Positions 5,428-33,372 of a stretch of 64,000 bases of DNA are shown here, piece by piece. This DNA is from Comamonas testosteroni. Lineage in GTDB: Bacteria; Pseudomonadota; Gammaproteobacteria; Burkholderiales; Burkholderiaceae_C. The stretch's first letter is position 1, and the number at the start of each line of letters is the position of its first letter. Both the position numbers and the translations under genes were made by a program. Location of the stretch: contig NZ_CP043568.1 of NCBI RefSeq assembly GCF_014076415.1, forward strand, positions 1 to 64,000, written 5' to 3'. The notes beneath the pieces were generated by a model, which saw nothing but the letters and a program-made list of their open reading frames with translations, had not been told where the DNA came from and did not search any database.

Positions 5428-5924
5428 TGTCCTCGGGCGACGTGGGTACCAGTATGGATCAGGATTCGCAGGAGGCGCATGCACTGCCTCCCATGCCTTT
5501 TGTTGAAGACTATCTGCCGGCGCTGCTAGCGCAGGCCAGCAAGCTAATTTCAGCTGAATTCCATACCGTGGTCGAGGCCGAGGGCTTCTCAATCACCGAG
5601 TGGCGAATCCTCGCCTCGCTGACAGGCACCTCCGGCATCAGCACCGGCCGCCTGGCGCAGATCTCGGTCAGCAAGCAACCAACCGTCACACGCCTTCTTG
5701 ATCGCATGGAAGCCAAGGGCTATGTGGAGCGCTTCGCGCACGACACCGACCGGCGCCTCACCATGGTGCGTATTGCGCCAGCCGGCCAGACTATTGTGGC
5801 CGACCTGATCCGCAAGGCCAAGGAGCACGAGCTGCGAGTGCTGCAGCCCTTCGGCCTCAAGCGCGCCGAAGCGCTCAAGGTCACGCTACGGCGCATCATC
5901 GAACTACACCTGCCTCCAGGCTGA
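5427..5924 (+). CDS. MarR family transcriptional regulator
   Basis: A winged-helix regulator of about 165 residues with the MarR core: TEWRILASLTG, GRLAQISVSKQPTVTRLLDRM for the recognition helix, and GYVERFAHDTDRRLTMVRI for the wing. MarR proteins usually repress nearby operons until an aromatic acid or CoA ligand binds. The first ATG overlaps the gyrB stop; a second in-frame ATG at 5454 (MDQDSQ) is possible, and neither has a strong ribosome-binding site. It is convergent with the catabolic operon, sharing the hairpin at 5927-5948, and is the likely local regulator of that operon. That role is inferred from position. Confidence 0.9.
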
Positions 5925-5926
5925 GA

Positions 5927-5948
5927 GGCGGATTCACTTCAATCCGCC
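5927..5948. terminator. Hairpin between convergent marR-like and tctC genes
   Basis: GGCGGATT and AATCCGCC form a perfect 8-bp stem with a 6-base loop. It lies between the MarR stop and the last codons of the convergent tctC. No clear T-run follows on either strand, so it is a possible bidirectional terminator only. Confidence 0.45.
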
Positions 5949-6928
5949 TTGATGCCCTGCGTCCTCACGATGGGACCGAACAACGCCGCTTCCTCGCCGA
6001 CCATGGCCGTCAGTTCAGCTGGCGACAGCGTCATTGGTTCGGCTCCGACCTCTGCAAACCGGGCTTTGATGACAGGCTGCGCGAGCAGCCTGTTCAGTTC
6101 GCGGTTCATGCGCATCACATGGGCCGCCGGCATCGCTGCTGGCGCATAGACCGCAAACGGCGTGTCCACGTAGACTTTGCCAAAACCCGCCTCTTCAATC
6201 GTGGACACATCGGCAGCATAGGATGGCCGGCGCCGGCTTGCCACGGCCAGCAGCTTGAGCTTGCCGGCCTTTACGCTGGGAAATACCGTGCCCGGCACCA
6301 GCGCATAGTCGACCTGGCCGGCCATCACGCTTTGGATTGCCGGCGCTGCCCCCCGATAGGGAATGTGTGCCGCGGAGATGCCCGCCGCCTGCTTGAACAG
6401 CTCACCGCCCACATGCGGCGTGGTGCCGTTGCCGGCAGATCCGTAGCTGAGCTTGCCGGGGTTGGCCTTCGCATAGGCCACGAATTCGGCCAACGTGTCC
6501 GGCGCCAGCGTCGGCCGCGTCACCAAAAACAACTGGGTATTGGCCAGTAGCGCCACATGCTGCAGGTCCTTAGCAGGCTGGATCGGCATACGCTCGAACA
6601 TCAACGGATTGACCGATTCCAGCGTGGTCACGTTGACCAGGAAGGTGCGTCCATCGCTGCCGTTGCGTGCCACCTCCACTGCGGCGACATTACCGCTGGC
6701 ACCGCTACGGTTGTCGATAATCACAGGCTGACCCAGCGCTTCGCTCAGTTGAGGCACCAGCAGGCGCATCAGCACATCAGCCAACCCTCCCGGAGGAAAA
6801 GCCACAACAAAGCGTACGGGCTTGCCGGGCCATGCAGCCTGGGCCAGCGCCGGAGTGCCGATCATGGTCATGGCCCCCGCCAAGGCCAGCAGATCTCGGC
6901 GGCGCGGATAGTGAAAACGTGAGGCCAT
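5939..6928 (-). CDS. Bug/TctC-family tripartite tricarboxylate transporter substrate-binding protein
   Basis: Periplasmic binding protein of about 329 residues. The N-terminus has twin arginines before a hydrophobic stretch (RRRDLLALAGAMTMIGTPALA), then the family start WPGKPVRFVVAFPPGG and the YGSAGNGTTPHVGGELF block. Such proteins bind carboxylates for TctAB transporters. AGGAG lies 9 bp before the ATG at 6928; the TTG upstream is not needed. It is the last gene of the leftward catabolic operon. No TctA or TctB membrane gene is present in the window, so its partner is elsewhere or it acts as a sensor. Confidence 0.92.
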   Translation of the reverse strand: MASRFHYPRRRDLLALAGAMTMIGTPALAQAAWPGKPVRFVVAFPPGGLADVLMRLLVPQLSEALGQPVIIDNRSGASGNVAAVEVARNGSDGRTFLVNVTTLESVNPLMFERMPIQPAKDLQHVALLANTQLFLVTRPTLAPDTLAEFVAYAKANPGKLSYGSAGNGTTPHVGGELFKQAAGISAAHIPYRGAAPAIQSVMAGQVDYALVPGTVFPSVKAGKLKLLAVASRRRPSYAADVSTIEEAGFGKVYVDTPFAVYAPAAMPAAHVMRMNRELNRLLAQPVIKARFAEVGAEPMTLSPAELTAMVGEEAALFGPIVRTQGIKAD

Positions 6929-6950
6929 CAATATGCTCCTGGAAATGGTC

Positions 6951-7679
6951 CTACAGCGCCAGGCTGCCGATGCTGGTGCCGCCGCAAACGTAGAGCACCT
7001 GGCCGGTCACGAAGCTGTTGGCAGCATCGGCAAAGAAGCCGACGGCGCGTGCCACGTCGGCCGACTCGCCTAGCCGGCGTACGGGCACCGAGGCGGCGAG
7101 CTGGCGCTCGCGGTCGCTGCCCTGCTCCACCACGTCGTAGAACATGTCGGTGCGGATGGGCCCGGGTGCGACTACGTTGACGGTGATGCCCTCGGGCGCC
7201 AGCTCCAGCGCCCAGGTGCGCGCCATGCCCTGCATGCCGGCCTTGGTGGCCGAGTAGCTGGTGCGCGTGGCCAGGCCCAGCGCGGCGCGCGACGACAGCA
7301 GCACGACGCGGCCGAACCGACGCGCGCGCATGGCCGGCAGCGCCGCCTGCAGCATCTGCACAGCGCAGCCCAGGTGCAGGTCGACCAGCGCATCCAGGTC
7401 GCCGAGCTTCACGTCGGGCAGCAGCGCGGCGCGGATCACACCGGCGTTGTGCACGATGGTGGTGACCTCGTGCCGCCGCACCATGGCCTGCACGGCCTCG
7501 GCCGTGGCGGCGCGGTCGGCCAGGTCGACCTCGATACTGTGCAGCCGGGGGTGGTCGATCTCGGTGCGCCGCCGCGCCAGCGAGACGACTTCGTAGCCCT
7601 GCTCCAGCAGTTGTTCACAGATGACCTTTCCGATGCCGGCGCTGCCGCCCGTCACCGCCGCAACCTTGTTGGGTTTCAT
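6951..7679 (-). CDS. Short-chain dehydrogenase/reductase (SDR)
   Basis: Classical SDR of 242 residues with the cofactor motif TGGSAGIGK near the N-terminus, NAG, and the catalytic SYSATK (Tyr-x-x-x-Lys). It probably oxidises a hydroxyacyl intermediate or reduces its keto form with NAD(P). The ATG at 7679 overlaps the stop of the upstream cyclase (ATGA), showing translational coupling. The long upstream reading frame extension is out of the real start. Substrate unknown; an aromatic-pathway intermediate is inferred from the operon. Confidence 0.9.
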   Translation of the reverse strand: MKPNKVAAVTGGSAGIGKVICEQLLEQGYEVVSLARRRTEIDHPRLHSIEVDLADRAATAEAVQAMVRRHEVTTIVHNAGVIRAALLPDVKLGDLDALVDLHLGCAVQMLQAALPAMRARRFGRVVLLSSRAALGLATRTSYSATKAGMQGMARTWALELAPEGITVNVVAPGPIRTDMFYDVVEQGSDRERQLAASVPVRRLGESADVARAVGFFADAANSFVTGQVLYVCGGTSIGSLAL

Positions 7680-8482
7680 GTCTTGCCCTCCACCAGTGCC
7701 AGCACGCGCAGCGGGCTGCCGCTGCCGTTCTCGATCTTCAGCGGTGCCGCCACCACCAGCGCGCCGGTGGGCGGCAACTGGTCGAGATTGGTAAGGCACT
7801 GCAGGCCGTACTTGCCGGCGCCGTGCATCAGCGAATGGCAGGGGTACGGCGGGCGCAGGTGGTAGCCCTGGCCGGCGTCCGTGCCTATGGATTCGGTGCC
7901 GAAGCCCAGCACGCCGCGCTGCTCGACCAGGAAGCGCACGGCCTCTGTGTCCGGCCCCGGCGTGTGCTGGCCGCTGGCGTCGAAGTTCTGGAAGGCCTCG
8001 GCATCGCGCGCCTGCGACCAGCGCCGCGCCCAGTCGGTGCGCATCAGCACCCAGTGGCCCTCGGGGATGCGGCCGTGCGCGGCCTCGAAGCGCTCGATGT
8101 CGGCCACGCCCATCAGGTAGTCGGGGTCGGCCGACGCCTGGGCGCTGCAGTCGATCACGCAGGCCGGCGCGATGAAGTGCTGCGGCGGGATGTTGTCCAC
8201 CGCGTTGTTGGGCAGGTCGCGGCCCGAGATCCAGTGGATGGGCGCGTCGAAGTGCGTGCCCGTATGCTCGCCGCAGGAGAAGTTGTTCCAGTACCAGCCG
8301 GGGCCGCGCTCGTCGTAGGCCGAGATCTGCTCGATGCGGAAGGGCTGGCACTGGCCCATCTCGGGCGGCAGCGCGATGGCGGGGAAGTCGGGGCTCAGCG
8401 TCTGCGTCAGGTCGACGATGCGGATGCGGCCAGTGGCGAGGGCGAGCGCCATGCCGCCGAGGAGTTCGAGGGGGGTCTGCAT
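7676..8482 (-). CDS. Cyclase family protein (kynurenine formamidase-like metal hydrolase)
   Basis: 268-residue member of the cyclase/KynB family, whose members hydrolyse formamides, lactams or related bonds with a bound metal. The family metal motif is visible as GEHTGTHFDAPIHW (H-x-GTH-x-D-x-P-x-H). The start at 8482 has GGAGG at good spacing and removes a 26-residue artificial extension. Its stop overlaps the next SDR. In an operon for an indolic substrate, a formamidase-like step would fit, but this is inference. Confidence 0.88.
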   Translation of the reverse strand: MQTPLELLGGMALALATGRIRIVDLTQTLSPDFPAIALPPEMGQCQPFRIEQISAYDERGPGWYWNNFSCGEHTGTHFDAPIHWISGRDLPNNAVDNIPPQHFIAPACVIDCSAQASADPDYLMGVADIERFEAAHGRIPEGHWVLMRTDWARRWSQARDAEAFQNFDASGQHTPGPDTEAVRFLVEQRGVLGFGTESIGTDAGQGYHLRPPYPCHSLMHGAGKYGLQCLTNLDQLPPTGALVVAAPLKIENGSGSPLRVLALVEGKT

Positions 8483-8483
8483 G

Positions 8484-9737
8484 TCAATATCCTCCGGCGG
8501 CGATTTCGCGCTCCAGTACCTTGGGGTTGTGGCGCCAGCGCTCCAGCCATTCCTGGGCAACGTCGCCGGGGTAGATGTCTTCCACGCCGTCCTTCAGCGC
8601 CTTCACGATGGCCGAGGCCAGCGCGGCCGGCGCCAGCTTCGGCGGCGGCAGGTTCTGGTTCCATTCGTCGTCGATGGGGCCGGGAAAGACGTTGACCACG
8701 CGGATTCCCGCCGCCCGCATCTCGGCGCGCAGGCACTGCGCCAGCGACAGCGCCGCAGCCTTGGAGGCCGAGAAGGTGCCGTGCGGCGGGAAGTTGGCCA
8801 GCGCATAGATCGACAGCAGATTGACCCAGGCCGTGGCATGCGTAGCGCCGTCGGCCGCACGGCCCTTGAGCGCCGGGCCGAAGCACTGCGCCAGCCGCAG
8901 CAGGCCGAGGTAGTTGACCTCCATCTCGGCCTTGGCCACGTCGGTGCCGCGCCGCGCCGCGATGCCGAAGCCGCGGTGCAGCTCGGCGGTGTTGACCACG
9001 ATGTCGACCTTGCCGCCGATCTGGCCGGCCAGGGTGCTGACCGAGCGCTCGTCGGTCACGTCCAGCGGCACCAGCGCGACCTGCGGCAGGGCTGCCAGCT
9101 CCGCCAGGCCCGGTAGCTTTTTCCAGGGCTCGGCGTGGCCCACCCAGACGAGGTCGGCACCGGCCTTGACCATGGCATGGGCCACGGCCTGGCCGGTGGC
9201 GGACTTGCCGTCCGTCACCAGCACCTTGCGGTACTTGGGGTCGCTGGCCATCTCGCGCAGCATGGGGTCGTCAGCCATGTTCTCCGTTCCTTTCTCGGGG
9301 TATCCGATCAGCACCGCCTGGCCGGCGCGGTCGAGCCGCGCGCCGACACGCACGCGCGCCGGGGCCTCGCCCACCTCGCCATGCAGGTGCACCATGACGC
9401 TGGGGCCTGCGTCGAGCCGCACCATGCCCAGGCGCCAGGGCAGGCGCTCGCGGAAATACAGGTCGTTGCTGTGGGCCAGCGTGGTCATGGCCAGCAGCTC
9501 GCCTGCGCCGCTTTGCGGCCGCCACGGCAGATCGGGCGACAGGCAGCGGTGGCAGGCCTCGCGCGGCGGGTATTGCACGGCACCGCAGTCGGCGCAGACC
9601 TGCAGCGCGAAGCGGCCTTCGGCCGCCGCAGCGGTGAGGCCCAGCGCCACACGGCCGCGCGCGGCTGGCGGCAGGTTGATCTGCGGGGTGCGCAGCACCG
9701 GGTTCTTGCGCGGGGGCTTGATGAAGGGCATGGTCAT
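8484..9737 (-). CDS. Fusion protein: DUF35 zinc ribbon/OB-fold domain plus SDR
   Basis: About 417 residues. The first ~150 carry a DUF35-type acyl-CoA-associated domain: CADCGAVQYPPREACHRC gives the zinc-ribbon cysteines, followed by an OB-fold-like stretch. After a short linker the rest is an SDR-like fold with FSASKAAALSLAQ near the active site and NVFPGPIDDEW. The nucleotide motif is non-classical (TDGKSATGQAVA). DUF35 proteins normally partner thiolase-like enzymes such as Ltp2, and the neighbour at 9826-11004 is such a thiolase. GGAGG precedes the ATG. The stop lies 1 bp from the cyclase start. Confidence 0.85.
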   Translation of the reverse strand: MTMPFIKPPRKNPVLRTPQINLPPAARGRVALGLTAAAAEGRFALQVCADCGAVQYPPREACHRCLSPDLPWRPQSGAGELLAMTTLAHSNDLYFRERLPWRLGMVRLDAGPSVMVHLHGEVGEAPARVRVGARLDRAGQAVLIGYPEKGTENMADDPMLREMASDPKYRKVLVTDGKSATGQAVAHAMVKAGADLVWVGHAEPWKKLPGLAELAALPQVALVPLDVTDERSVSTLAGQIGGKVDIVVNTAELHRGFGIAARRGTDVAKAEMEVNYLGLLRLAQCFGPALKGRAADGATHATAWVNLLSIYALANFPPHGTFSASKAAALSLAQCLRAEMRAAGIRVVNVFPGPIDDEWNQNLPPPKLAPAALASAIVKALKDGVEDIYPGDVAQEWLERWRHNPKVLEREIAAGGY

Positions 9738-9825
9738 GGCGCCTCCGCCGGGCCGCCCCAAGGAGAGCGCCGCACCCCCTCGTGGGGCAGCGACCACACG
9801 GAGTGGGGAGCGTGGGGGTCATTTT

Positions 9826-11004
9826 TCATTCGCTTGTCTCCAGGATCACCGCCCCAGTGCACAGGCAGCGGTCGTAGGTCACCATGCCGAAGCCTCCCAC
9901 CAACCCGGTGCGCGCGCCCGCCACGCCGCGCTCGCCGGCCTGGCCGGTGAGCTGGCGCAGAGTCTCCGTCATGCCGAGAAAGCCGCCGGCCGCACCCGCC
10001 TGGCCGCAGGAGAGCTGGCCGCCGCTGGTGTTGTGCGGAAAGTCGCCGGCATGGGTCAGGTCGTGCTCGCGCACGAAGGCCGGGCCCTCGCCCTTGTCGC
10101 AGAAGCCCAGGTCCTCTATCTGCATCATCGCGATCACCGGGTAGTCGTCGTAGGTCTGCAGCAGGTCGATGTCCTGCGGCGCGAAGCCGGCCTGGGCATA
10201 CAGATCGGCGCAGTCCACGCGCCAGCCGCCGCGCAGCATCACCGGGTCGTCGGCATAGGCGTTGTGGCGCTCGATCGCGCCGCGCAGCAGCACGTGAGGC
10301 AGCCCCAGGTCGCGCGCTCGCTCGGGCGCCATCACCAGGAAGGCCTCGGCGCCGGCGCAGGGCATGACGCAGTCGAACAGGTGTATGGGATCGGAGATCG
10401 GCCGCGCCGCCATGTACTCATCGAGAGTCAGCGGCTTCTTGAACAGTGCGTTGGGGTTGCGCAGCGCGTTCGCCCGCTGGGCCACCGCGATGCGGCCGAA
10501 ATCCTCGCGCTGCGCGCCGTAGCGGCGCATATAGCTCGCGGTGATGAAGGCGAACATGGAGTTCGGCCCACCTGCGCCGTAGGGGTAGCTCGCGTCGCGG
10601 GCGAAGTCGCTGAACGCGCCCAGCGTCTGGCGGAACGAATCCACATGGTTGGTGTCGGCCGCCACGCAGGCCACCACCTCGGCGTCACCGCACTGCACGG
10701 CGCGGGCCGCGCGCCGCAGCGCCATCACGCCCGAGGCGCCGCCGGTGGGGATGTGGTCCAGCCAGCGCGGCGACAGGCCCAGGTGCTGGGTCACGCCCAC
10801 GGCCGTGTCGGGCGCCAGCGAGAAGCTGCTGACCGTGAGGCCGTCGATCTGCTCCTTGGCCAGCCCGCTGCCCTGCAGCAGGCCACGCACGGCCTGGCCC
10901 AGGAACCAGTGCGCGCCCCGGATGGAGTAGCGCTCGTAGGGCACGGTGACGGGCACGGCCAGCGCCACGCCCTCGTAGCCCCTGCGTCGGATGTATGCGG
11001 TCAT
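9826..11004 (-). CDS. Thiolase family protein (SCP-x/Ltp2-like)
   Basis: 392-residue thiolase-fold protein related to sterol-carrier/lipid-transfer thiolases. The C-terminal glycine-rich block reads NTSGGQLSCGQAGAAGG, unlike the GHPxGATG of classic degradative thiolases. The usual N-terminal nucleophile region reads PTGGASGVMALRRAA, with no obvious catalytic Cys there. This pattern is closer to DUF35-dependent thiolase-like aldolases. It probably cleaves a C-C bond in a CoA thioester together with the adjacent DUF35-SDR fusion. The start is 2 bp from the next tctC stop. Confidence 0.88.
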   Translation of the reverse strand: MTAYIRRRGYEGVALAVPVTVPYERYSIRGAHWFLGQAVRGLLQGSGLAKEQIDGLTVSSFSLAPDTAVGVTQHLGLSPRWLDHIPTGGASGVMALRRAARAVQCGDAEVVACVAADTNHVDSFRQTLGAFSDFARDASYPYGAGGPNSMFAFITASYMRRYGAQREDFGRIAVAQRANALRNPNALFKKPLTLDEYMAARPISDPIHLFDCVMPCAGAEAFLVMAPERARDLGLPHVLLRGAIERHNAYADDPVMLRGGWRVDCADLYAQAGFAPQDIDLLQTYDDYPVIAMMQIEDLGFCDKGEGPAFVREHDLTHAGDFPHNTSGGQLSCGQAGAAGGFLGMTETLRQLTGQAGERGVAGARTGLVGGFGMVTYDRCLCTGAVILETSE

Positions 11005-11006
11005 GT

Positions 11007-11984
11007 TCAGTCCAGCCTGATGCCGGCCGCGCGGATGATGCGACCGAATTTCTGGGTGTCGCCCTGGATGGTCTGCGCGAACTGCTCGGGCGTGCCGGCC
11101 ACCACCGTCATGCCCACGCCGGACAACAGCTCGCGCGTCTGCGGCATCTGCAGGATGCTGGCCAATTCCTGGTGCAGCTTGGCTATGACGGGCTGGGGCG
11201 TGCCGGCCGGCACCACGAAGCCGATCCAGGTCAGCAGATCGACGCCGGGAACGCCGGATTCGGCCAGCGTGGGGACGTCGGGCAGCAGCGGGTTGCGCTG
11301 CGCGCTAGTCACCGCCAGCGCCCGCACCTTGCCGCCCTTGATGTAGGGCATGGCCGGGCCCAGCGCATCGAAGATCAGCGGCACCTGGCCGCCCACCGTA
11401 TCCGTCATCGCTGGCGCGCCGCCCTTGTAGGGCACGGCCAGCAGGTCCGCGCCGGTGGCGCTCTTGAAGACCTCACCCGCCACCTGCGCCGGCATGGCGC
11501 CATGCGCATAGGCCAGCTTGCCGGGCTGTGCGCGCGCCGCCACCAGCAACTCGGACACCGTGCGCGCACTGACCGACGGGTGCGCCGCCAGCACCATGGG
11601 CATGGTGATGGCCAGCGTCACCGGCGCGAAGCTCCTGGCCGGGTCGTAGGGCAGCTTGCCGTACAGGCTCTGGTTCATGGCCAGCGTGGAATCGATGGCC
11701 ACGAACAGCGTGTAGCCGTCGGGCGCCGCCTTGGCGGCCGCCTCGGCAGCGATGATGGTGTTGCCGCCGGGCTTGTTGTCCACCATGACGGGCACCTTCC
11801 AGCGCTCACCGAGGCGCGCCGCCACGGCGCGGGCCACCAGGTCGCTGCCGCCGCCGGGCGGAAAGGGCACGATGATGCGGATAGGCTTGCCGGGATAGGC
11901 ATCCTGCGCCGCCACGCCGCAGACCAGGCAGGCGCTGCACAGCAGCAGGGCCAAAGATCGTTTCAGGAAGGGCAAAACTCGCAT
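11007..11984 (-). CDS. Bug/TctC-family substrate-binding protein
   Basis: Second Bug protein of the operon, about 325 residues. A signal peptide (MRVLPFLKRSLALLLCSACLVCGVAAQ) precedes the family start YPGKPIRIIVPFPPGGGSDLVARA. GAAGGAG lies upstream of the ATG at 11984. It sits between the CoA ligase and the thiolase genes, separated by 16 and 2 bp, so it is part of the same transcript. Probably delivers or senses the aromatic carboxylate. Confidence 0.92.
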   Translation of the reverse strand: MRVLPFLKRSLALLLCSACLVCGVAAQDAYPGKPIRIIVPFPPGGGSDLVARAVAARLGERWKVPVMVDNKPGGNTIIAAEAAAKAAPDGYTLFVAIDSTLAMNQSLYGKLPYDPARSFAPVTLAITMPMVLAAHPSVSARTVSELLVAARAQPGKLAYAHGAMPAQVAGEVFKSATGADLLAVPYKGGAPAMTDTVGGQVPLIFDALGPAMPYIKGGKVRALAVTSAQRNPLLPDVPTLAESGVPGVDLLTWIGFVVPAGTPQPVIAKLHQELASILQMPQTRELLSGVGMTVVAGTPEQFAQTIQGDTQKFGRIIRAAGIRLD

Positions 11985-12000
11985 GGAAGCTCCTTCGGGG

Positions 12001-13590
12001 TCAGCGCTTGAGCTGGATGCCGGCCGCATCGCGGTCCCAGGTCTGCTCGGTGATGCCGCGCTCGCGCAGCTTGAACTTCTGCACCTTGCCGTTCTCGGTC
12101 GAGGGCAGCACGGCCATGAATTCGAGGTAGCGCGGCACCGCGAAATACGCCATGCGCGGCTCGCAGAAACGCACCAGATCCACCGGATCCAGCGCGGCGC
12201 CTTCGCGCGGCACGATGGCGGCCATGACCTCGTCCTCGGCCAGCTCGCTCTTCACCGGAAACACCGCCGCCACGGCCACGGCCGGGTGGCTGAGCAGCAC
12301 CTGCTCCACTTCGTAGGATGAAATGTTCTCGCCGCGGCGGCGGATAGCGTCCTTGAGCCGGTCGAGGAAGGTGAAGAAGCCGTCGGCATCGCGCACCACG
12401 CGGTCGCCCGTGTGGAACCACAGGTTGCGCCAGGCTTCCACGGTCTTGTCTGCCATGCCGAAATAGCCGGTGGCGAAGGCGAAAGGCTCGTCGGCGCGCA
12501 GCAGCAGCTCGCCGGGCGTGCCAGTCGGCACGTCCTCGTCGTGCTCGTCGGCCACCCGGGCGGTGAAGCCCGGCACGATGCGGCCCATGCTGCCGGGGCG
12601 CTGCTCGGCATCAAGGCCGATGACGAAGTTGCTCTCGGTGGAGCCGTAGCCGTCGAGCAGGCGCATGCCGAAGCGCTCGCTGAACTGCGCATGGAAGCGC
12701 GGCGGCACGCCGGGCGCCAATGCAATGCGCACACGGTGCGCGCGGTCGTGCGGCGTCGCGTCCTTGGACAGCAGGATGGGCACCATCGCGCCCAGCACAT
12801 AGGTGGCCGTGGCCTGGTGCCGCACCAGCGCGGCCCAGAAGCCCGAGGCCGAGAAGCGTTTCTCGACCACCAGCGTGGAGCCGGTCAGCAGCGCCTGGAA
12901 GAAGGCGTTCATCGCGTTGGTGTGGAACAGCGGCAGCGTGGTCAGCAGCACCTCGCCATCACCCAACTCCAGCAGCTCGGCGGTATGCCGGCCCCACCAG
13001 TAGAACTGCGCATGCGGGCAGCACACGCCCTTCGAGAGACCCGTCGTGCCCGAGGTGTAGAGGATGGCCAGCGTGTCGCCAGGCTGCACTGATGCGGCAT
13101 CCACCAGCGCATCGCCCGGCGCAGGGAAAGGCTCGGTGCCGGGTTCCTGCGGCGCGTCTGTGCGCCATACACGCTCCAGTGGCAGACCATCACGGTCTTC
13201 CAACCCGCGCAGCGCCGCCAGCCCTTCGGCCTCGGCCACGAACAGCCGGGCGCCCGAGTTGGCCAGGATGTGCCGCAGCGTGGCACCGCGCGCGGCGGTG
13301 TTGACCGGCACGGTGACGGCGCCGATCCAGGCGCAGCCCAGGAAGACCTGCAGGAACTCGGCTCGGTTGCCGCACATCAGCGCCACGCGGTCGCCGGCAC
13401 GGATGCCGGCGGCCTGCAGCACCGCGCCCATAGCCTGGGCGGTGCGCAGCGCGTCGGCGTAGCGCCAGCGGGTATCGCCTGCGACGAGCAGCGTGCGCTC
13501 CGCAAATCGCTGGCACTGGTGCGCCAGCATCGCCGGCAGCGTACGTCCTGCGGGCGCGAAGGTTTCTATGGCGGAAATGGCAGCAGGCAT
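12001..13590 (-). CDS. Acyl-CoA synthetase / aryl-CoA ligase (AMP-binding)
   Basis: 529-residue member of the ANL superfamily that activates a carboxylic acid with ATP and CoA. It has the P-loop ILYTSGTTGLSKG, the YGSTESN motif, GDRVVRDADGFFTFLDR, and the C-terminal catalytic lysine region TENGKVQKFKLR. The ATG at 13590 has GAGG at good spacing; a GTG at 13602 overlaps the upstream stop and is less likely. Substrate is unknown; the neighbouring dioxygenase suggests an aryl acid. Confidence 0.93.
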   Translation of the reverse strand: MPAAISAIETFAPAGRTLPAMLAHQCQRFAERTLLVAGDTRWRYADALRTAQAMGAVLQAAGIRAGDRVALMCGNRAEFLQVFLGCAWIGAVTVPVNTAARGATLRHILANSGARLFVAEAEGLAALRGLEDRDGLPLERVWRTDAPQEPGTEPFPAPGDALVDAASVQPGDTLAILYTSGTTGLSKGVCCPHAQFYWWGRHTAELLELGDGEVLLTTLPLFHTNAMNAFFQALLTGSTLVVEKRFSASGFWAALVRHQATATYVLGAMVPILLSKDATPHDRAHRVRIALAPGVPPRFHAQFSERFGMRLLDGYGSTESNFVIGLDAEQRPGSMGRIVPGFTARVADEHDEDVPTGTPGELLLRADEPFAFATGYFGMADKTVEAWRNLWFHTGDRVVRDADGFFTFLDRLKDAIRRRGENISSYEVEQVLLSHPAVAVAAVFPVKSELAEDEVMAAIVPREGAALDPVDLVRFCEPRMAYFAVPRYLEFMAVLPSTENGKVQKFKLRERGITEQTWDRDAAGIQLKR

Positions 13591-13598
13591 CGCGGGCC

Positions 13599-15427: not shown

Positions 15428-15437
15428 TGCGCCTCCC

Positions 15438-16409: not shown

Positions 16410-16464
16410 CGCGGGACTCCTGGAAGCGGGTCGGTGGGGAGGAAGGAAAGGAAGGGGCGCGGGC

Positions 16465-17454: not shown

Positions 17455-17466
17455 GGAGGTTCTCCT

Positions 17467-18966: not shown

Positions 18967-18973
18967 GACGGTG

Positions 18974-21139: not shown

Positions 21140-21250
21140 CGCAAGATCCTTCACAGGGCCCGCGTGGGAACGGGCGTTTATGATTTTGGATGAATATGGC
21201 ACGCATTACTTTAAAAATAAATATATCCAAAATCATAGTTTTCCCTAGCC
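21140..21250 (-). promoter_or_regulatory. Promoter/operator region of the catabolic operon
   Basis: An AT-rich stretch unlike the flanking genes. It contains a perfect 13-bp inverted repeat: TATGATTTTGGAT at 21179-21191 and ATCCAAAATCATA at 21225-21237, separated by 33 bp. The arms flank the region where the leftward promoter should lie, so they are good candidates for a repressor operator, perhaps for the MarR protein at 5427-5924. I cannot assign the -35/-10 boxes with certainty. Confidence 0.55.
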
Positions 21251-24690: not shown

Positions 24691-24735
24691 AAGAAAACGT
24701 CTTTGAAAAGCCCCGCAGGGCTATGCTTGGGCGGG

Positions 24736-25716: not shown

Positions 25717-25769
25717 CCGAGTCTCCTTATCGGCCTCTGGGGCCTGTTGTGTTGCTCTAGTGGTGGGCC

Positions 25770-26537: not shown

Positions 26538-28264
26538 TAGTTTGCCTCCGGTGTGTAGAAGGTGATGGGAGGAAAGGCGTTTTCAGTGCACATCACTTCG
26601 ATAAGAGTGGAGTCTTCGGCCGCCATGGCGTCCTTCAAGGTTGCAGCAAGCTGCGCAGGATCGTTTACGCGAACACCGTTGATGCCACAAGCGCGAGCAA
26701 CAGCTGCGTGATCGACACCGGCAAATTGCACCGCTGTGGTGTGTTCACCGAATTTCACGTTCTCGGCGTGCTTCTGGTAACCCAGAATTCCGTTGTTGAT
26801 CAGCAGTGTGATGACCTTGATACCCATGCGCTTGCAGGTTTCCATCTCGGACCATACGTGGCCGAAGCCGCCGTCCCCCACCAAGGCGAATACATGACCT
26901 TCTTCACGGGCCAGACGGGCTCCCATCGCCATCGGCATACCCCAGCCGAGACCCGCAAGACCCCGTGGAGTGATGAAGCGCTGGCCGGCTTTGCGGCTTG
27001 TCAGATAGTTAGTCACCCACAATGTGGAATAGCTCGCGTCGGTGACCACCGTATCCTCCGGCTTGAGCAAGGCATCGAGCTCCGTCATCAGGCGCTCAGG
27101 ACGCATTGGCGTTTCCGAACTGTTGCGCACAGCTGCAGATTCATCCTGGTGCCTCTTTTTGCCTGCGGCAATTTGATCGGTCAGCTCTTGCCTGCGGGCT
27201 GAGCGCGCTGCAGTGTCTTTTGTCCTGGCCAACTCGGTCATGGCAGCCAGCGCCAGCTTTGCATCACCCACCAGGCGCAACGCGTCATAGTTGCGGCCAA
27301 TCTCAGTGCCGTCGATGTCCAGGTGGATGAACTTGGCGCTCTTGGGATACAGCGTCCACGAGTCGGTACCGTTCTGATTGGTACGGTTGCCAACCAGGAA
27401 CACAACGTCCGCCCCGGTGATGAAATCCTTCAGATAGCGGCCCGAGGCATTGGGGCCCATGCAGTTCGCCATGACACCCAAGGACAGCGGCTGCGTCTCA
27501 TCCACAGCACCCTTGCCCATATTGGTGGTGCCTACAGGCAGCGTCATGGCATCCGCGAAGGCCACCAGCTCCTCGTGGGCCTGCGAGCCGTGCACACCAC
27601 CGCCGGCAATGATCACTGGACTTTTGGCATTGCGTAGCAAATCGACAGCTTGCTCGAGCAAGCGGGTATCGGGGGTAAAACGGTCGAGCGGGAAGCGGCC
27701 CAGATTGGACTCACGCGGCACACTCGAAGCAATCCCCTTTTCCATCAGCAAGTCAGCGGGCAACATCAACGCCACGGGACCTGGTCGCCCACTGCAGGCT
27801 GCGATCACTGCCTGGTCGATGTAGTCCTCAATGCGAGAGGCTTGGTCTACCCGGCGCACCCACTTGGTAACCGGCTTGAACAGACCCATGTGATCCAAGT
27901 CCTGGAACGCATTCTTGTCCGTTTGCTCGCGCGCTACGTCCTGCACCAAAGCAATAATTGGAACCGAGACCTTGAGGGCTTCAGCCAAAGGCGCAACCAG
28001 CAGCGTAGCTGCGGGACCATTTTGTGCGGTGATCACCGCTGGGGTGTTGGTCATACGGGCGTAGGCATCGGCCATATAACCGCCGGCATTCTCGGTACGG
28101 TAGGCAATTTGCTTGATTCCCAACTCCTCGGCAGCCAGCACGAACATACTTGGCAAGGACTGGCCAAAAAACTGCTTGATTCCGTGCTTTAAAAGGGCCT
28201 TGGCCACAAGGTGGCCCACGGTTTCATGGGCGTTGAGGCCAGGGTTGGCGAGAGGTTTGAGCAT
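26537..28264 (-). CDS. Thiamine-pyrophosphate-dependent enzyme (acetolactate synthase/decarboxylase-like)
   Basis: 575 residues. An N-terminal pyrimidine domain carries the catalytic Glu in YRTENAGGYMADAYARM. A central domain follows, then the C-terminal TPP motif GDGGFGHVWSEMET...NNG. The family includes acetolactate synthases and 2-oxoacid decarboxylases; sequence alone cannot choose. GGAG lies 9 bp upstream of the ATG. It is the first gene of the unit, divergent from the GntR gene. Confidence 0.9.
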   Translation of the reverse strand: MLKPLANPGLNAHETVGHLVAKALLKHGIKQFFGQSLPSMFVLAAEELGIKQIAYRTENAGGYMADAYARMTNTPAVITAQNGPAATLLVAPLAEALKVSVPIIALVQDVAREQTDKNAFQDLDHMGLFKPVTKWVRRVDQASRIEDYIDQAVIAACSGRPGPVALMLPADLLMEKGIASSVPRESNLGRFPLDRFTPDTRLLEQAVDLLRNAKSPVIIAGGGVHGSQAHEELVAFADAMTLPVGTTNMGKGAVDETQPLSLGVMANCMGPNASGRYLKDFITGADVVFLVGNRTNQNGTDSWTLYPKSAKFIHLDIDGTEIGRNYDALRLVGDAKLALAAMTELARTKDTAARSARRQELTDQIAAGKKRHQDESAAVRNSSETPMRPERLMTELDALLKPEDTVVTDASYSTLWVTNYLTSRKAGQRFITPRGLAGLGWGMPMAMGARLAREEGHVFALVGDGGFGHVWSEMETCKRMGIKVITLLINNGILGYQKHAENVKFGEHTTAVQFAGVDHAAVARACGINGVRVNDPAQLAATLKDAMAAEDSTLIEVMCTENAFPPITFYTPEAN

Positions 28265-28379
28265 CGATAGGTCTCCAAGTTTTCTTGCTTCGCATTAATT
28301 TATAAAATAATGCATCACACCCGCAGTGTGGCAGCAGACTTAGATCAACGTACAGGGGAAAGCCCCTATTGGAGACAAA
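28265..28379. promoter_or_regulatory. Divergent promoter region with a palindromic operator
   Basis: This 115-bp AT-rich gap separates the leftward TPP-enzyme operon from the rightward GntR gene. At 28292-28313 it holds a 22-bp near-perfect palindrome (GCATTA and TAATGC outer arms around TTTATAAA; 20 of 22 positions symmetric). This is a good candidate operator for the adjacent GntR protein controlling both directions. Confidence 0.6.
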
Positions 28380-29135
28380 ATGGCTGAAGTCAATCACACC
28401 GACGTGGTGCGAGAGCGGGTACTGAAAAAGCTGATCTATGGCGAGTACGCTCCTGGCCATGTGTTCAAGCTACGCGAAATGCTGGAAGACCCGGACTTTT
28501 CAGGGATGAGCCAGACACCGGTGCGAGAAGCATTGCTGCAGCTCGTGGCCAAGGACATCCTGACGAGCCAGCGCGGCTTCAGCGTGCGTGTCCCCATGCC
28601 ATCGGTCGAACATTTGACCGAGGTTCGGGCCATCCGCACCCAGCTTGAAATCATGGCTGCACTGAAAACCCTTGGCACCTGGACACCGGAAAAATTGGCC
28701 GTGCTGCAAGGCATCCACAAAGAGCTGATCGCTGCAAAAGCCAAAGGTGCGACCAGTGACATCTTGAGCGCAAATGTGCGGTTCCACTTTGGACTCTACG
28801 GCGAGGGGAAGTCTTACTTGCTGAACATGATCACGACGCTCTGGGCCATCACCGGGCCCAGTGTTCGTTACCTATACACCGATGGGGTGCCTAGCAGCAG
28901 CGACCGCCGGCATTCGCACGAAGATGTGATGGAAGGCTTGAAAACGGGTAACCCTGAATTGGTCGCCAAAGGTATCCGCGATGACCTGAGTAGTACCGGC
29001 GATCGCATATTGGAGGTGCTTCGAAAAACAGTCTCACCGGAAGCTCAAGCGATCAAGCAATTTGAGCCGATTCAGCTGGTTCGAGCGCGGGAAAGACGAA
29101 TAAAAAGCTTAAACAAAAAGGAAGATGCGGCGTAA
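28380..29135 (+). CDS. GntR family transcriptional regulator (FadR/FCD type)
   Basis: 251-residue regulator with an N-terminal winged helix (VRERVLKKLIYGEYAPG, SQTPVREALLQLVAKDIL) and a C-terminal all-helical FCD ligand domain (EVRAIRTQLEIMA, HEDVMEGLKTGN). GGAG lies before the ATG. It is divergent from the TPP/SDR/tctC/gabD operon and probably represses it until a metabolite binds. Confidence 0.93.
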   Translation: MAEVNHTDVVRERVLKKLIYGEYAPGHVFKLREMLEDPDFSGMSQTPVREALLQLVAKDILTSQRGFSVRVPMPSVEHLTEVRAIRTQLEIMAALKTLGTWTPEKLAVLQGIHKELIAAKAKGATSDILSANVRFHFGLYGEGKSYLLNMITTLWAITGPSVRYLYTDGVPSSSDRRHSHEDVMEGLKTGNPELVAKGIRDDLSSTGDRILEVLRKTVSPEAQAIKQFEPIQLVRARERRIKSLNKKEDAA

Positions 29136-29257
29136 GTCTTGGACTTGCTCTACAGCGATCGCGAGGAACTGATCCTTGTGCACTCGCTACAGACCAGACT
29201 TCCCCCTGCGGCATTCCAACACTCCTCGGAATTTCTGAGCCCTCCTGGCCGGCCAGC

Positions 29258-30406
29258 TCAGTGCTGGCCGCCGAACTCTTCCCACAGCATCTGCGTGTGC
29301 TCGCCCAGCGCAGGTACCGCGCCCATGGCGGCTTCAGCATCCGAGAGCGTGGCCGGCGGCAGCAGCGCCTGAATGCTGGCGCCCGGCGTGGCCACCTCGC
29401 GCCAGCGTGCTCGCGCCTGCAGTTGAGGATGACTCCAGACCGCGTGCATGTCGTTGAGCGGCGCGTTGGCAATACCACCTTCATCCAGCCGCTGCATGGC
29501 CTGTTCGAGGCCCAGAGGAGCCAGTACGGATGCGATCAGCGCATCAAGCTCCGCACGGTGCGCCACGCGCTGCAGATTGGAGGCAAAGCGCGCGTCCTGC
29601 GCCAGCTCCGGTTGTCGCAGAACATGGATGCAGAAGCTATGCCACTCACGGTCGTTTTGCAGGCCGAAGATCAGGCTCTGGCCATCACCGACCGCGTACT
29701 GCCCATAGGGTGCGATGGAGGGATGTGTCAGCCCGCTGCGCGCGGGTGCCGCGCCGCCGTAGTGGGAGAAGTTCAGCGGGTAGGACATCCATTCGGCCAA
29801 GGCCTCCAGCATGGACACTTCCACGCGCAAGCCACGACCAGTGCGCCCACGCTGCAGCAAAGCAGACAAAATGCCCGAGTAGGCATACATGCCTGCCGCG
29901 ATATCGGCGATGGAAATGCCCACGCGCACAGGCTGTTGCGGTGAACCCGTAACCGAGATGAGACCGGCTGCAGCCTGTATCAGCAGGTCATAGGCTTTTT
30001 GCTCGCTGAGCGGACCGCCTTCGCCATAGCCCGATATATCGCAGACGATGAGCCGGGGATATTTGGGGTGCAGGCTTTCAAAGTCCAGGCCCATTCTCTG
30101 CATAGCGCCAGGGGCCAGGTTCTGGATCAGGATATCGGCCTTTTCCAGAATTCTCTCGACGATATGCCGTCCCTCATCGGTCTTGATATCCGCAGCCAGG
30201 CTTTGCTTCCCCCGATTGGCCCAGACAAAGAAGGATGATTCTCCACCCACCTTATCGTCATAGCCACGCGCAAAATCCCCACCGGGCAATCGCTCCAGCT
30301 TGATAACCCTGGCCCCCAGGTCCGCCAATTGCCGGCTGGCAAAAGGTCCTGCCACGGCATGCTCCATGGCTAATACCGTCAAACCATCCAATGGGCGTGT
30401 CTGCAT
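29258..30406 (-). CDS. Family III CoA-transferase (CaiB/BaiF)
   Basis: About 382 residues: MQTRPLDGLTVLAMEHAVAGPFASRQLADLGARVIKLE is the typical start, with the RGKQSLAADIKTDEG and GYGEGGPLSEQKAYDLLIQAAAG blocks. The catalytic Asp of the family corresponds to the latter block. It moves CoA between carboxylic acids. The ATG at 30406 is preferred over an upstream TTG. It follows the LysR gene on the same strand. Substrates are unknown; the maoC-like hydratase across the divergent promoter may act in the same pathway. Confidence 0.92.
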   Translation of the reverse strand: MQTRPLDGLTVLAMEHAVAGPFASRQLADLGARVIKLERLPGGDFARGYDDKVGGESSFFVWANRGKQSLAADIKTDEGRHIVERILEKADILIQNLAPGAMQRMGLDFESLHPKYPRLIVCDISGYGEGGPLSEQKAYDLLIQAAAGLISVTGSPQQPVRVGISIADIAAGMYAYSGILSALLQRGRTGRGLRVEVSMLEALAEWMSYPLNFSHYGGAAPARSGLTHPSIAPYGQYAVGDGQSLIFGLQNDREWHSFCIHVLRQPELAQDARFASNLQRVAHRAELDALIASVLAPLGLEQAMQRLDEGGIANAPLNDMHAVWSHPQLQARARWREVATPGASIQALLPPATLSDAEAAMGAVPALGEHTQMLWEEFGGQH

Positions 30407-30500
30407 TTTCTTGAACAAGGCGAATGTTGGATGCGGCGGATTCTAGAATTGCCTCCCGACCCAAGCCAGTCGGCATTTTCTAAGGCAGATATCAAATCTT

Positions 30501-31421
30501 CTAAGCCTCAGAAAGCTTGGGCGAGCCTTCCTCGGGCAGTGGATTCGCCACTACATAGGCCACGAAATCACGGGCATAGCCGGGCAGCGTTTCGGGGTCG
30601 CGCGTGACCACTTTCTGCTCGCGCTGTGCCCAGGACTCATCCAGGCTCACCGCGCACAGCCGGCCCGCCAGCAGCGCCGACCCGGCAATGGAGCGTGGCA
30701 CCAACGCAACGCCCACGCCCTCCTGTACACACTGCAACACCGCCTCGAACGTGGGTGCATGTACACGTACGCGCGGATTCATGCCCAGCCTAGATGCCAT
30801 GTTCTGCAGATAGAGAAAATTGCTGGTCTTGCGGCCTATGGAAACCAGGTCATAGGTCAGCGCGGTTTCCAGCGAGACCTTGTCGCCTGCAGCCAGAGGG
30901 TGGCCCACAGGAAGCACGAAGACCAGTTCATCCTGGCCATAGGTGGTGGCATGCAGGCCATGCAGATCGGCATGACCGGCCACCAGGCCCACGTCGGCAC
31001 TGCCGTCCAGCACGGCTCGCACGGTGTCCTCGCTCAAGCGCTCCTCCAGGCCCACATTGACGTTCGGATAATGAGCCAGATAGCGGCTGAGCACGGGCGC
31101 GATTCCCGTCAGCGTGCTGCTGTTGGCAAAGACTCGGATATGGCCAGATATCCCGTTGACATGCCTTTGCATTTCGCTGTGCAGGCGGTCAACGCTACTG
31201 AAGATGGAGTTGGCATATTTCTTGACCGTCATGCCCGCCGGCGTGAGCACCATGCCCTTGGAGGTTCTTTCAAACAGCGACGCACACATGGCCTGCTCAA
31301 GATTCTTGAGTCGGTAGCTGGCCGAAGGCGCAGTCAAGTGCACTTCAGCGGCGCCTGCGCTGAGGCTTTGGGCTTGGGCAATCGCAAGGAAAACCCGTAG
31401 ATCCGTCAATTCATATCGCAT
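30501..31421 (-). CDS. LysR family transcriptional regulator
   Basis: About 306 residues with the N-terminal helix-turn-helix (LRVFLAIAQAQSLSAGAAEVHLTAPSAS) and a periplasmic-binding-like effector domain. Start MRYELTDL at 31421 matches the family; an ATG at 31430 is also in frame. It is divergent from tctC-maoC and upstream of the CoA-transferase gene, and is probably autoregulated through the box at 31456-31472. Confidence 0.93.
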   Translation of the reverse strand: MRYELTDLRVFLAIAQAQSLSAGAAEVHLTAPSASYRLKNLEQAMCASLFERTSKGMVLTPAGMTVKKYANSIFSSVDRLHSEMQRHVNGISGHIRVFANSSTLTGIAPVLSRYLAHYPNVNVGLEERLSEDTVRAVLDGSADVGLVAGHADLHGLHATTYGQDELVFVLPVGHPLAAGDKVSLETALTYDLVSIGRKTSNFLYLQNMASRLGMNPRVRVHAPTFEAVLQCVQEGVGVALVPRSIAGSALLAGRLCAVSLDESWAQREQKVVTRDPETLPGYARDFVAYVVANPLPEEGSPKLSEA

Positions 31422-31455
31422 CCGTTCCATGCCCGCGAGGGGCAACTCCCTGAGT

Positions 31456-31472
31456 GTTAGACGGCTTCTAAC
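31456..31472. promoter_or_regulatory. LysR-type binding palindrome
   Basis: GTTAG-N7-CTAAC is a perfect interrupted palindrome containing a T-N11-A core. It lies in the 127-bp gap between the divergent LysR and tctC starts. Position and form match LysR-type operators. Confidence 0.55.
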
Positions 31473-31548
31473 CGCCTTATCAATGATTCGACTGGCCCGC
31501 CTCGCATGGTATTTCTATATTCGGCGCCAGGAGACAACGGAGAAAATT

Positions 31549-32520
31549 ATGGACTTCAAGACGGCAAGACGCCAAACCCTGATCACTGCTCTGCTGCTGG
31601 CCGCAGGCGCCGCCGCAGCGCAGGACTATCCATCGCGCCCCATTAAGCTCGTAATTCCCTATGCGGCCGGCGGACCCACCGACACCTTTGGCCGCGCCGT
31701 GGCCGAAGTTTGGAGCCAGAAGCTGGGCACACCGGTGGTGATAGAAAACCGCACGGGTGCAGGTACCCTGGTAGGCACTGAAGCGGTCGCCAAAGCTGCT
31801 GCCGACGGCTACACGCTGCTGTTGACCACGGTGGCGCATGCAGTCAATCCCCACATCCACGAAAAGATCGGCTACCGCACCGAAGAAGACTTCGCCCCTG
31901 TGGGCCTGGTCGCGAAGGCTCCGTTAGTGCTCATCGTGGACAAGCGGCTGCCGGTGCATAGCCTGCCGGAGTTCCTGGCCTATCTACGGGCACGGCCCGG
32001 CCAGGTCAGCTATGCCTCGGCCGGCGTAGGCAGCGCTCCCCACCTGGGTGCGGAGCTGCTGAACCTGATGGCGGGAACCAGGGCTTTGCATGTGCCTTAC
32101 CGGGGCAGCGCACCGGCGCTACAGGATCTCATCGGCGGGCACCTGGCCTTCATGCTGGACAGCGCGCCCACGGGCCTGGCACAGGTCAAGGCAGGCACGG
32201 TGCGCTTGCTGGCCACCACCATGGCCCAGCGACTGCCCCAGACGCCAGACACACCGGCCATCGCCGAGCAGGTGCCTGGCTACGAGGCCTACACCTGGAA
32301 TGCCGTGTTCGCGCCTGCAGGCACGCCGCAGACCTTGATCACCAAGCTGCAATCCAGCCTGCAGGCCACGGTGGACGATGCCGGGCTGCAGAAAAAGGCA
32401 TTCGACATGGGTCTGGTTCTGGAAAAGCAGCCGCGCGCACCGGCGCTGGCCGCATTCCTGAAGCAGGAGCTGGAAAAATGGGGCAAGGTCGCCAAAGCCG
32501 CCCATATGAGCGCGAACTGA
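31549..32520 (+). CDS. Bug/TctC-family substrate-binding protein
   Basis: About 323 residues after choosing the ATG at 31549, which has GGAG upstream and yields a signal peptide (MDFKTARRQTLITALLLAAGAAAAQ). Family blocks YPSRPIKLVIPYAAGGPTD and YASAGVGSAPHLGAELL follow. It is paired with the maoC-like gene 10 bp downstream and divergent from the LysR gene. Confidence 0.92.
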   Translation: MDFKTARRQTLITALLLAAGAAAAQDYPSRPIKLVIPYAAGGPTDTFGRAVAEVWSQKLGTPVVIENRTGAGTLVGTEAVAKAAADGYTLLLTTVAHAVNPHIHEKIGYRTEEDFAPVGLVAKAPLVLIVDKRLPVHSLPEFLAYLRARPGQVSYASAGVGSAPHLGAELLNLMAGTRALHVPYRGSAPALQDLIGGHLAFMLDSAPTGLAQVKAGTVRLLATTMAQRLPQTPDTPAIAEQVPGYEAYTWNAVFAPAGTPQTLITKLQSSLQATVDDAGLQKKAFDMGLVLEKQPRAPALAAFLKQELEKWGKVAKAAHMSAN

Positions 32521-32530
32521 GGAGGCGGCC

Positions 32531-32995
32531 ATGCAACACCGCCCCTCCATGTGCGCTCAGCGCTACTTCGAAGACTTCGCACTAGGCGAGGTCTTTGTGC
32601 TGCCCTCGCGCACCATGACCGAAGCTCTCTTCTCCGCCTTCCAGCTGGCCAGCGGCGACAACCATCCCGTGCACTACGACGTGGAATACTGCCGCGCACG
32701 TGGCATGCCCCATATGCTGGCCCATGGCTACCAGGTGGCCATACAGACAGCGGCGGGGGCCGGCCTGTTTCCGCACATGGTCGAGGAGTCGCTCAAGGGC
32801 TTTCTCGAACAGGGAAGCCGATTCCTGGCCCCCGTCTATGTGGGCGACACGCTGTACTGCACACTGACGGTGTCCGAGCTCAAGGCCAGTAACACCACGG
32901 GCGTGCTGACCCTGGCCACCCTGGTACTCAACCAGCGCGACGAGCGGGTGTCTGACGGGTTTCAGAAGTACCTGTTGAGAAAGCGGCCCAACTGA
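32531..32995 (+). CDS. MaoC-like (R)-specific enoyl-CoA hydratase
   Basis: 154-residue hot-dog fold protein. The catalytic hydratase motif is visible as ASGDNHPVHYD with a following glycine-rich region. It would hydrate an enoyl-CoA, perhaps made by the CaiB-type transferase across the divergent promoter. A strong GGAGG lies 5 bp before the ATG. Confidence 0.9.
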   Translation: MQHRPSMCAQRYFEDFALGEVFVLPSRTMTEALFSAFQLASGDNHPVHYDVEYCRARGMPHMLAHGYQVAIQTAAGAGLFPHMVEESLKGFLEQGSRFLAPVYVGDTLYCTLTVSELKASNTTGVLTLATLVLNQRDERVSDGFQKYLLRKRPN

Positions 32996-33079
32996 GGGCT
33001 TCGGGCGAGGCCGCTGCGCAACCTGGCGCGTCCCGAGATGCTGGACAACCTGGTTCCCAACTCATTGTCATGCGGCGCT

Positions 33080-33372
33080 TCACCCTATACAGCAAACTCC
33101 ATACCGCTCATCAGCCGCCATCACCACGGCAATACCCAGAGCGCCATCCTGACCCAGGAGTTTGCAGCAGCCTTGATTACGCTGCCCTGCACTACGCAGC
33201 AGAGAACCTTGTCGGCCTGCTGGGCGACGGCGAACACGCCAAGCTCGCAAAGGTCTGCGTGGCAGATCTCCGAAGCCGAACTCACCACAGGCCACCAGCG
33301 CTTGCAAGGACCTGGGCGAAATAAACCCCGAGCAGGGCCTCATGCATCCGCAATCTGCTGCACAAGATCGAC
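33080..33372 (+). pseudogene. gyrB: Decayed 3' fragment of gyrB
   Basis: DNA here aligns with the 3' part of the intact gyrB (about 4965-5315). In one frame it encodes [18 protein letters not shown] (gyr[19 protein letters not shown]), then in another frame LDYAALHYAAENLVGLLGDG, then again LTTGHQRLQG and CCCGAGCAG. Several frameshifts and an internal deletion have destroyed it. It has the same orientation as gyrB. It marks the right edge of the catabolic block and sits just before jetA. Confidence 0.85.

Follow-up and report, generated by a model that had tools for sequence, protein, structure and literature searches.

For the type VI secretion system (T6SS) arrays of Vibrio cholerae, a one-sided displacement that leaves old 3' parts behind has been proposed (PMC5361080). 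Tn7-like transposons use protein-guided attachment (att) sites, described in PMC11406308 and PMC10293859 as glmS, tRNA genes and comM, with parE for Tn7017; parE, the paralogue of gyrB, is a known target of TniQ (PMC11406308). Wadjet is listed for 34 Tn7-like transposons in PMC8649781. Here we analyse a stretch of 64,000 nucleotides from Comamonas testosteroni (the window), in which intact gyrB is followed after 28 kb by a decayed second copy of its own 3' part (the remnant), just ahead of a jetABCD operon (Wadjet, which acts against plasmids). From its sequence and position, the remnant is probably the old end of gyrB, and would mark where gyrB once adjoined jet before catabolic DNA intervened.

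The two copies are located as follows.

2860..5427, + strand: intact gyrB (open reading frame, ORF)
33082..33388, + strand: decayed copy of gyrB 4961-5328, the old gyrB 3' part (blastn, and alignment with gyrB 3' ends)

The intact gene is preceded, at the start of the window, by two genes that we take from the gene order to be dnaA and dnaN. When 2501-6000 was compared with the whole window by blastn, there was a single strong second match, of 33096-33335 to 4976-5259 on the plus strand (71.3% over 286 columns, E 1e-41). Looser scoring extended this to 33082-33335 (215/302 identical, 51 gap columns), and in an alignment with 66 gyrB 3' ends the remnant reaches ~33388, which corresponds to gyrB 5328. 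It covers gyrB codons ~701-823, on the same strand as the intact gene; beyond it, nothing can be recognised of the final ~100 bases of gyrB, as 51 of 300 shuffles score equally high. A directly oriented, decayed copy of the gyrB end 28 kb after gyrB, which an earlier note on this DNA had described from the letters alone, is therefore confirmed by both blastn and alignment.

Compared with the window's gyrB over 288 aligned sites, the remnant shows 55 differences, and it has suffered deletions of 1, 24, 20, 17 and 3 bases and one 1-base insertion. The changes are distributed 16/19/20 over the three codon positions (chi-square p 0.79 for evenness), whereas over the same sites third positions account for 13 of 15 changes in the functional gyrB of genome G055 and 15 of 26 in that of G022. 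Because the changes are spread evenly, we take the remnant to be a fragment of a pseudogene rather than a gene that has diverged; the same even decay at all codon positions argues that it is not young. Although any dating is rough, decay of 19% on one branch, set beside a third-position divergence of 29-40% between the window genome (G000) and G055 in three longer flank genes, suggests an old event. No second gyrB copy was seen in other Comamonas with 32990-33480 as query (53 genomes, of which 51 matched); G048 and G062 gave no match at all and are uninformative on this point. Matches outside gyrB in genomes of the genus were short, up to ~55 bp. The DNA at one of them, in G049, was retrieved and bears no resemblance to gyrB.

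The remnant lies immediately upstream of jetA, at the left edge of the following genes.

33455..33482, + strand: sigma-70-like site TTGGCA-16-TACAAT (one found, mean 0.1 in shuffles)
33466..34986, + strand: jetA (DUF3375), Wadjet (Pfam); likely start ATG 33490, inferred by start comparison
34974..35738, + strand: jetB (DUF4194; Pfam)
35735..39034, + strand: jetC (SMC-like; SbcC/AAA_29; Pfam; PADLOC JetC, E 0)
39031..40212, + strand: jetD (DUF3322 / JetD_C; Pfam)
40238..40855, - strand: glutathione S-transferase gene, which comes next to the right of gyrB in the empty-site genomes G068, G055 and G060
40945..41418, + strand: gene for a CxxCxxCC protein (w40945/w41011), conserved right flank (comparison with relatives)

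JetA, JetB, JetC and JetD are thus encoded in one operon, as expected for Wadjet. The sigma-70-like site is weak, since it lies almost on the likely jetA start (33490) and leaves nearly no leader. The operon is rare in the genus, with long matches in five of the 53 genomes (G000, G012, G046, G065, G023), and JetC is 73.5% identical to that of G012 (an uncultured Comamonas), 73-75% to Acidovorax and 62% to C. composti.

We fetched 29 jetA loci from named genomes of related bacteria. In 16 of them jetA is preceded by a same-strand gyrB, separated from it by 12, 43, 59 and 72 bp in four loci (the 12-bp gap being in L096, Acidovorax) and by 0.3-9.6 kb in the other twelve. Thirteen loci show no gyrB upstream; five of these have < 7 kb of upstream DNA, and eight have 10 kb and no gyrB. 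The CxxCxxCC gene (w41011) follows jet on the fetched stretch in L096, L097, L098, L100 and L103. Taken together, these two arrangements suggest that the order gyrB-jet-w41011 is likely to be old in this family. The remnant occupies the place of gyrB in that order, and it is this correspondence between its position ahead of jetA and the gyrB-jet junction of related loci that leads us to regard it as the old gyrB end.

We asked to which gyrB the remnant is nearest, using a 'species group' chosen by gyrB similarity (G000, G057, G068, G045, G013, G020, G017, G055 and G060). At sites that separate groups by an 80% majority, it agrees with its own species group rather than the sister group at 11 sites against 1 (3 neither), with its own group rather than the G012 group at 16 against 1 (5 neither), and rather than Acidovorax at 23 against 5 (7 neither); at fixed sites the own/sister/neither count is 7/1/2. 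A maximum-likelihood (ML) tree places the remnant in a clade of its own species group and G067 (ultrafast bootstrap, UFBoot, 92). On these comparisons the remnant is nearest to the gyrB of its own species group, with a difference from the alternatives that is not significant.

The 28 kb between gyrB and the remnant contain catabolic genes, five TctC receptors, regulators and an ISL3 transposase gene.

5427..5924, + strand: MarR-family regulator (Pfam; start chosen by reading)
5939..21202, - strand: catabolic module (Pfam)
21823..22983, - strand: ISL3-family transposase gene (Pfam; 94% copy elsewhere in G020)
23230..29135, no single strand given: aldehyde dehydrogenase, TctC, SDR, TPP enzyme and GntR regulator (Pfam)
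29258..32995, no single strand given: CoA-transferase/LysR/TctC/MaoC module (Pfam), the first genes after gyrB in G006, G041 and G042

The likely ATG of the MarR gene overlaps the gyrB stop codon (TGATG), with the same apparent overlap in G057 and G022. The module at 5939..21202 encodes TctC receptors, SDRs, a ChsH2-like protein, a thiolase-like protein and an AMP-binding ligase, together with the alpha and beta subunits of a Rieske oxygenase, a Fer2 reductase and a POR/TPP-enzyme pair; at 7-21 kb its guanine plus cytosine (GC) content is ~70%, compared with ~61% around it. It is found at the same place in G057 (~89-91%) and, from 6951 on, in G022 (~83-89%). Nothing corresponding to the segment 23230..29135 appeared when the gyrB stretches of relatives were compared by blastn.

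Modules of the block occur separately at the same address, in G057, in G022 and in G006/G041/G042, mostly at 7-20% divergence, with one gene at 33%. Third-position divergence from G022 is 13-25% for six catabolic genes of the block, 31% for MarR and 29-41% for the CoA-transferase..MaoC module; the first TctC gene reaches 51%, where G022 aligns to a different copy. For comparison, core genes of G022 differ at third positions by 30-42% in four genes right of jet and by 15-19% in dnaN and gyrB. Relative to G057, the divergence is 17-24% in the block and 8-25% in five right-flank genes. Judged by these divergences beside those of the core genes, the pieces of the block look like old residents of the gyrB address in the genus rather than a foreign island of recent date, notwithstanding the ~70% GC of the module at 7-21 kb.

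The gene content given in the earlier note was borne out by the Pfam scan. The note had held that a full block in all relatives would speak against recent insertion; the block is absent from seven of the eight other species-group genomes in the stretches fetched, and G057 has only part of it. The note had likewise counted a better alignment to an unrelated gyrB homologue against its reading; the remnant is nearest to the gyrB of its own group. The proposal that the insertion was recent is not supported, given the even decay of the remnant and the piecewise, diverged modules in relatives. Neither is the proposal that an island restored the gyrB end, as the last ~600 bp of the intact gene are ordinary for the group (97-99% to G068, G020, G013, G017 and G045) and nothing shows replacement.

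Comparison of the gyrB neighbourhood among relatives places the remnant in a wider context. At the empty site of G068, G055 and G060 the glutathione S-transferase gene lies ~60-85 bp after gyrB. The extra DNA of the window relative to this site runs from 5428 to ~40237 and includes jetABCD, so that the remnant is internal to the variable segment. In G057, gyrB is followed by MarR and the catabolic operon (to w21812) and then by the glutathione S-transferase gene, with insertions of 4.2 kb and 2.5 kb of its own in that region. The order in G022 is gyrB, MarR, catabolic operon, 6 kb of other DNA, CoA-transferase..MaoC (w29264-32986) and w41011; in G006, G041 and G042 the CoA-transferase..MaoC module is all that separates gyrB from w41011; and G020, G013, G017 and G045 have 1-13 kb of other DNA after gyrB. 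By hand count, gyrB and the CxxCxxCC gene lie on one contig in the same order and orientation in 28 of 53 genomes, the window's included, at spacings of 0.05-96 kb (< 1 kb in six); of the other 25, 13 lack a CxxCxxCC match, and in 12 the gene is either rearranged or found on a separate contig. Judging by these neighbourhoods, the 3' side of gyrB is a hotspot.

We infer that one-sided recombination put the catabolic block between gyrB and jet, and consider this account as a whole, including its direction, somewhat better than an even bet. The ancestral order would have been gyrB-jetABCD-downstream genes. The incoming DNA would have come from a relative with catabolic genes after gyrB (MarR, the catabolic operon and onwards up to MaoC); one of its ends would have been anchored by homology within gyrB, and the other joined illegitimately inside the 3' part of the resident gyrB. 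This would leave an intact gyrB, the new block and the old gyrB tail orphaned ahead of jet, which would then have decayed as a pseudogene. G022 has an allele of the donor type, gyrB-MarR-catabolic-..-MaoC, of which G057 and G006/G041/G042 have parts; in G022 and G057 the block stands right after gyrB, and the homologous crossover point was not located. Of the island insertion envisaged in the earlier note, the part that stands is that DNA came to lie between gyrB and its probable old neighbour, leaving the old tail behind; the bounded, integrase-type island is not supported, with no integrase among the 30 ORFs scanned and borders that are not at the remnant.

Several observations weigh against this account. 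Six of the seven own-group states at fixed sites are also the commonest in outgroups, leaving one that is derived, and the approximately unbiased (AU) test rejects no placement of the remnant (p 0.10-0.58 for five constrained placements other than the best), with p 0.099 for a remnant outside the species group and p 0.129 for one with Acidovorax-type gyrB. In local alignment, 88 of 300 shuffles match gyrB as well as the segment 33000-33085 does, and 165 and 174 of 300 do so for sister intergenic DNA; as neither side gave more than a chance match, the joint could not be made out. The gyrB-jet adjacency that the earlier note had proposed to look for exists in the related genera described above, four times within 100 bp, but in no species-group genome examined. 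Finally, the decay is large, yet close genomes have neither jet nor remnant; the account must therefore suppose losses, or that the locus as a whole was exchanged later.

The gyrB address is also used by transposons. A TGTAG or TGTCGAATG motif lies <= 25 bp from the gyrB stop in 15 of 50 other genomes of the genus, where random 28-mers from these loci would give 0.76; the choice of motifs followed inspection of the sequences. In G046 (C. composti), gyrB is followed by TnsA, a TnsB-like protein (Mu-transpos_C), TniB/TnsC and a 660-aa TniQ (Pfam); G010 carries a set homologous to these tns genes at gyrB, and G016 has TnsA/TnsB. When the G046 TniQ was searched for in 349 genomes sampled from the order (E 1e-20), it was found at 14 places in 13 genomes, 23-29% identical. 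Eleven of the 13 have gyrB in the same orientation, 4-26 kb ahead of tniQ; it was not found upstream of tniQ in G333 and G201 (60 kb each) or at the second G079 copy (40 kb). Each of the 11 gyrB-adjacent genomes has a TGTAG motif beginning 2-11 bp past the gyrB stop, and homologues of TnsA, TnsB and TnsC were all seen in eight; in G101 (TnsA), G210 and G391 (TnsC) part of the set was seen, on stretches partly searched for tns homologues.

The gyrB-proximal ends were used to scan the far side of nine elements. Four of these have a far end with a perfect 5-bp target duplication, and no far end was found in the other five.

G175: TGCTT
G303: TAAGC
G328: GATGT
G010: TGACC (read by eye; far end with 3/12 mismatches)

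The gyrB stop codon falls within the duplication in G303 and G010. Relatives thus carry, at gyrB, both the TnsA/B/C and TniQ genes and the paired ends with 5-bp duplication of Tn7-like elements. Such elements lie a few bp after the gyrB stop in diverse genera (L127, L149, L181, L182, L186, L188, L190, L191, L195, L199, L201, L205, L208). A second, degenerate Tn7-like end directly follows the target duplication of the G010 element (L212:7600-7720), which suggests stacked, successive insertions at the same gyrB site. Downstream of gyrB in G021 (L046), ends that look Tn7-like enclose an 8-kb tartrate-type operon with a TctC gene, named by reading the proteins; the far end is weak (6 mismatches) and no tns genes were recognised inside.

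Five of nine Comamonas hotspot proteins scanned with PADLOC match defence families and four do not; the matches are LmuA and LmuB (Lamassu, G010), DRT8 and a weaker LmuB-like protein (G016), and a type I restriction enzyme (G045). A TnsA family search of the 53 genomes of the genus gave matches in 12, 10 of them over the cut-off; it missed G010, although blastp finds its TnsA. These matches are in the gyrB region only in G046 and G016 and otherwise elsewhere or on other contigs, that of the window's own genome being at 4.94 Mb; not every Tn7-like element of the genus therefore goes to gyrB. Among the 29 jetA loci, Tns genes of G046, G010 and G016 were not found except as fragments of TnsA and TnsB in L101 (1705-1828, the jet locus of G012), 94-100% identical to G046 and ~1.2 kb before jetA.

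The most serious rival to one-sided insertion of the catabolic block is its mirror image. Here gyrB-MarR-catabolic-MaoC would be the resident order, and a gyrB-jet fragment, anchored by homology on its right (in the glutathione S-transferase gene or beyond), would have brought jet and the cut-off tail of a donor gyrB, joined after MaoC. One event gives the same layout, blocks without jet exist (G057, G022, G006), the similarities of JetC suggest that jet moves between lineages, and the 3' end of the intact gyrB is of the group's own type. The remnant should then resemble the gyrB of jet-bearing lineages, yet it is nearest to that of its own group, if not significantly by the AU test; the genes that flank jet on the right are typical of the group, which is compatible with either direction. 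We regard this polarity as possible, and well short of probable. That an unrelated gyrB fragment landed beside jet by chance we find scarcely credible: small decayed fragments do occur in genomes, but the position and orientation of this one equal the gyrB-jetA junction of related genera.

Two readings invoke a dedicated vehicle. A gyrB-homing Tn7-like transposon whose ends and tns genes have since disappeared could have carried the block in between gyrB and jet, in keeping with the use of the gyrB address by such elements in the genus and the order, and with the transposon-like ends that enclose a catabolic operon and TctC receptor in G021. Neither TGTAGG nor CCTACA was found near the block borders (5428, 33000-33490 or 40237), however, and the MarR start overlaps the gyrB stop. 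We also know of no Tn7-like insertion that duplicates 300 bp of its target gene. We thus consider a transposon origin of the window's own block unsupported and improbable. A site-specific, integrase-type island in gyrB with att duplication would explain why a direct repeat of the 3' part of a gene flanks DNA of foreign composition. Such an island should have an integrase gene and att repeats at both borders; the 30 ORFs scanned with Pfam contain no integrase, the copy exceeds 300 bp and lacks the last ~100 bases of gyrB, and it is internal to a variable segment that continues to ~40237. We rate this less likely still.

Since Wadjet is listed for Tn7-like transposons (PMC8649781), a transposon origin of the gyrB-jet link itself is thinkable, but beside jet no tns gene was found other than the fragments in the G012 locus. 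One-sided recombination could then be joined to the findings in relatives: the 3' side of gyrB would be a conserved Tn7-like homing site in the order, with a long TniQ reading the gyrB end; Wadjet after gyrB would be a relic of domesticated cargo; and the orphan tail in the window would be the fossil of a later cargo exchange by host recombination. We offer this combination tentatively, as a conjecture that may well fail in one of its parts.

Elsewhere in the window we noted a GC-rich repeat of ~330 bp at 62095-62424, with 10 matches in the window genome, up to 34 in another, and matches in 15 of 31 genomes. It is missing at this spot in G068, G020, G017, G057 and G055 and present in G013, and the same repeat lies between dnaA and dnaN in G002; by this distribution we take it to be a mobile element, like a miniature inverted-repeat transposable element (MITE) or repetitive extragenic palindromic (REP) sequence. 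The middle of gyrB (3460-4360) is 91-95% identical to G068, G020 and G045, compared with 96-99.7% at both ends, and is perhaps a recombination patch from an unsampled lineage. Two self-complementary stretches (54624-54656 and 56629-56664; 89-91%) are possibly terminators.

In the open-licence literature, as far as titles and the starts of abstracts go, which is not proof of absence, we found no description of gyrB as a Tn7-like target or of a gyrB-jet link, and nothing relevant on gyrB islands. The text of PMC10293859 and PMC8649781 is without 'gyrB' or 'gyrase' and that of PMC11406308 without 'gyr', while PMC12452197, in its gyrB passages, uses gyrB as a phylogenetic marker. The orphan tail is evidence at the sequence level that catabolic DNA can stack behind an essential gene, with the old neighbour and a scrap of the gene retained. 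Tn7-like transposons share the gyrB address with defence genes (Wadjet, Lamassu, DRT, type I restriction) and with catabolic operons, and a gyrB-homing TniQ, if true, would add a protein-guided target beside the known parE to Tn7-like transposition.

Among described systems, the elements at gyrB in relatives resemble Tn7-like transposons (PMC11406308 and PMC10293859) in TnsA, TnsB, TnsC and a long TniQ, in TGT..ACA ends, in the 5-bp target duplication and in insertion just after an essential gene. They differ in that the target is gyrB, the paralogue of parE, and they are not shown as the vehicle of the window's block. The layout of the window itself, as read here, resembles homology-facilitated illegitimate recombination as described for the T6SS effector-immunity arrays of V. 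cholerae and for rhs (PMC5361080): the new DNA would likewise have been anchored by homology in a conserved gene, with the old 3' part kept downstream as an orphan. Here, however, the anchor would lie in a housekeeping gene, the insert is catabolic, and the orphan is a pseudogene instead of a module that could be used again. The jet genes correspond to Wadjet (JetABCD) in forming a complete operon with all four Pfam families and a PADLOC JetC; here, as often in related genera, they have their place downstream of gyrB, be it by inheritance or by exchange.

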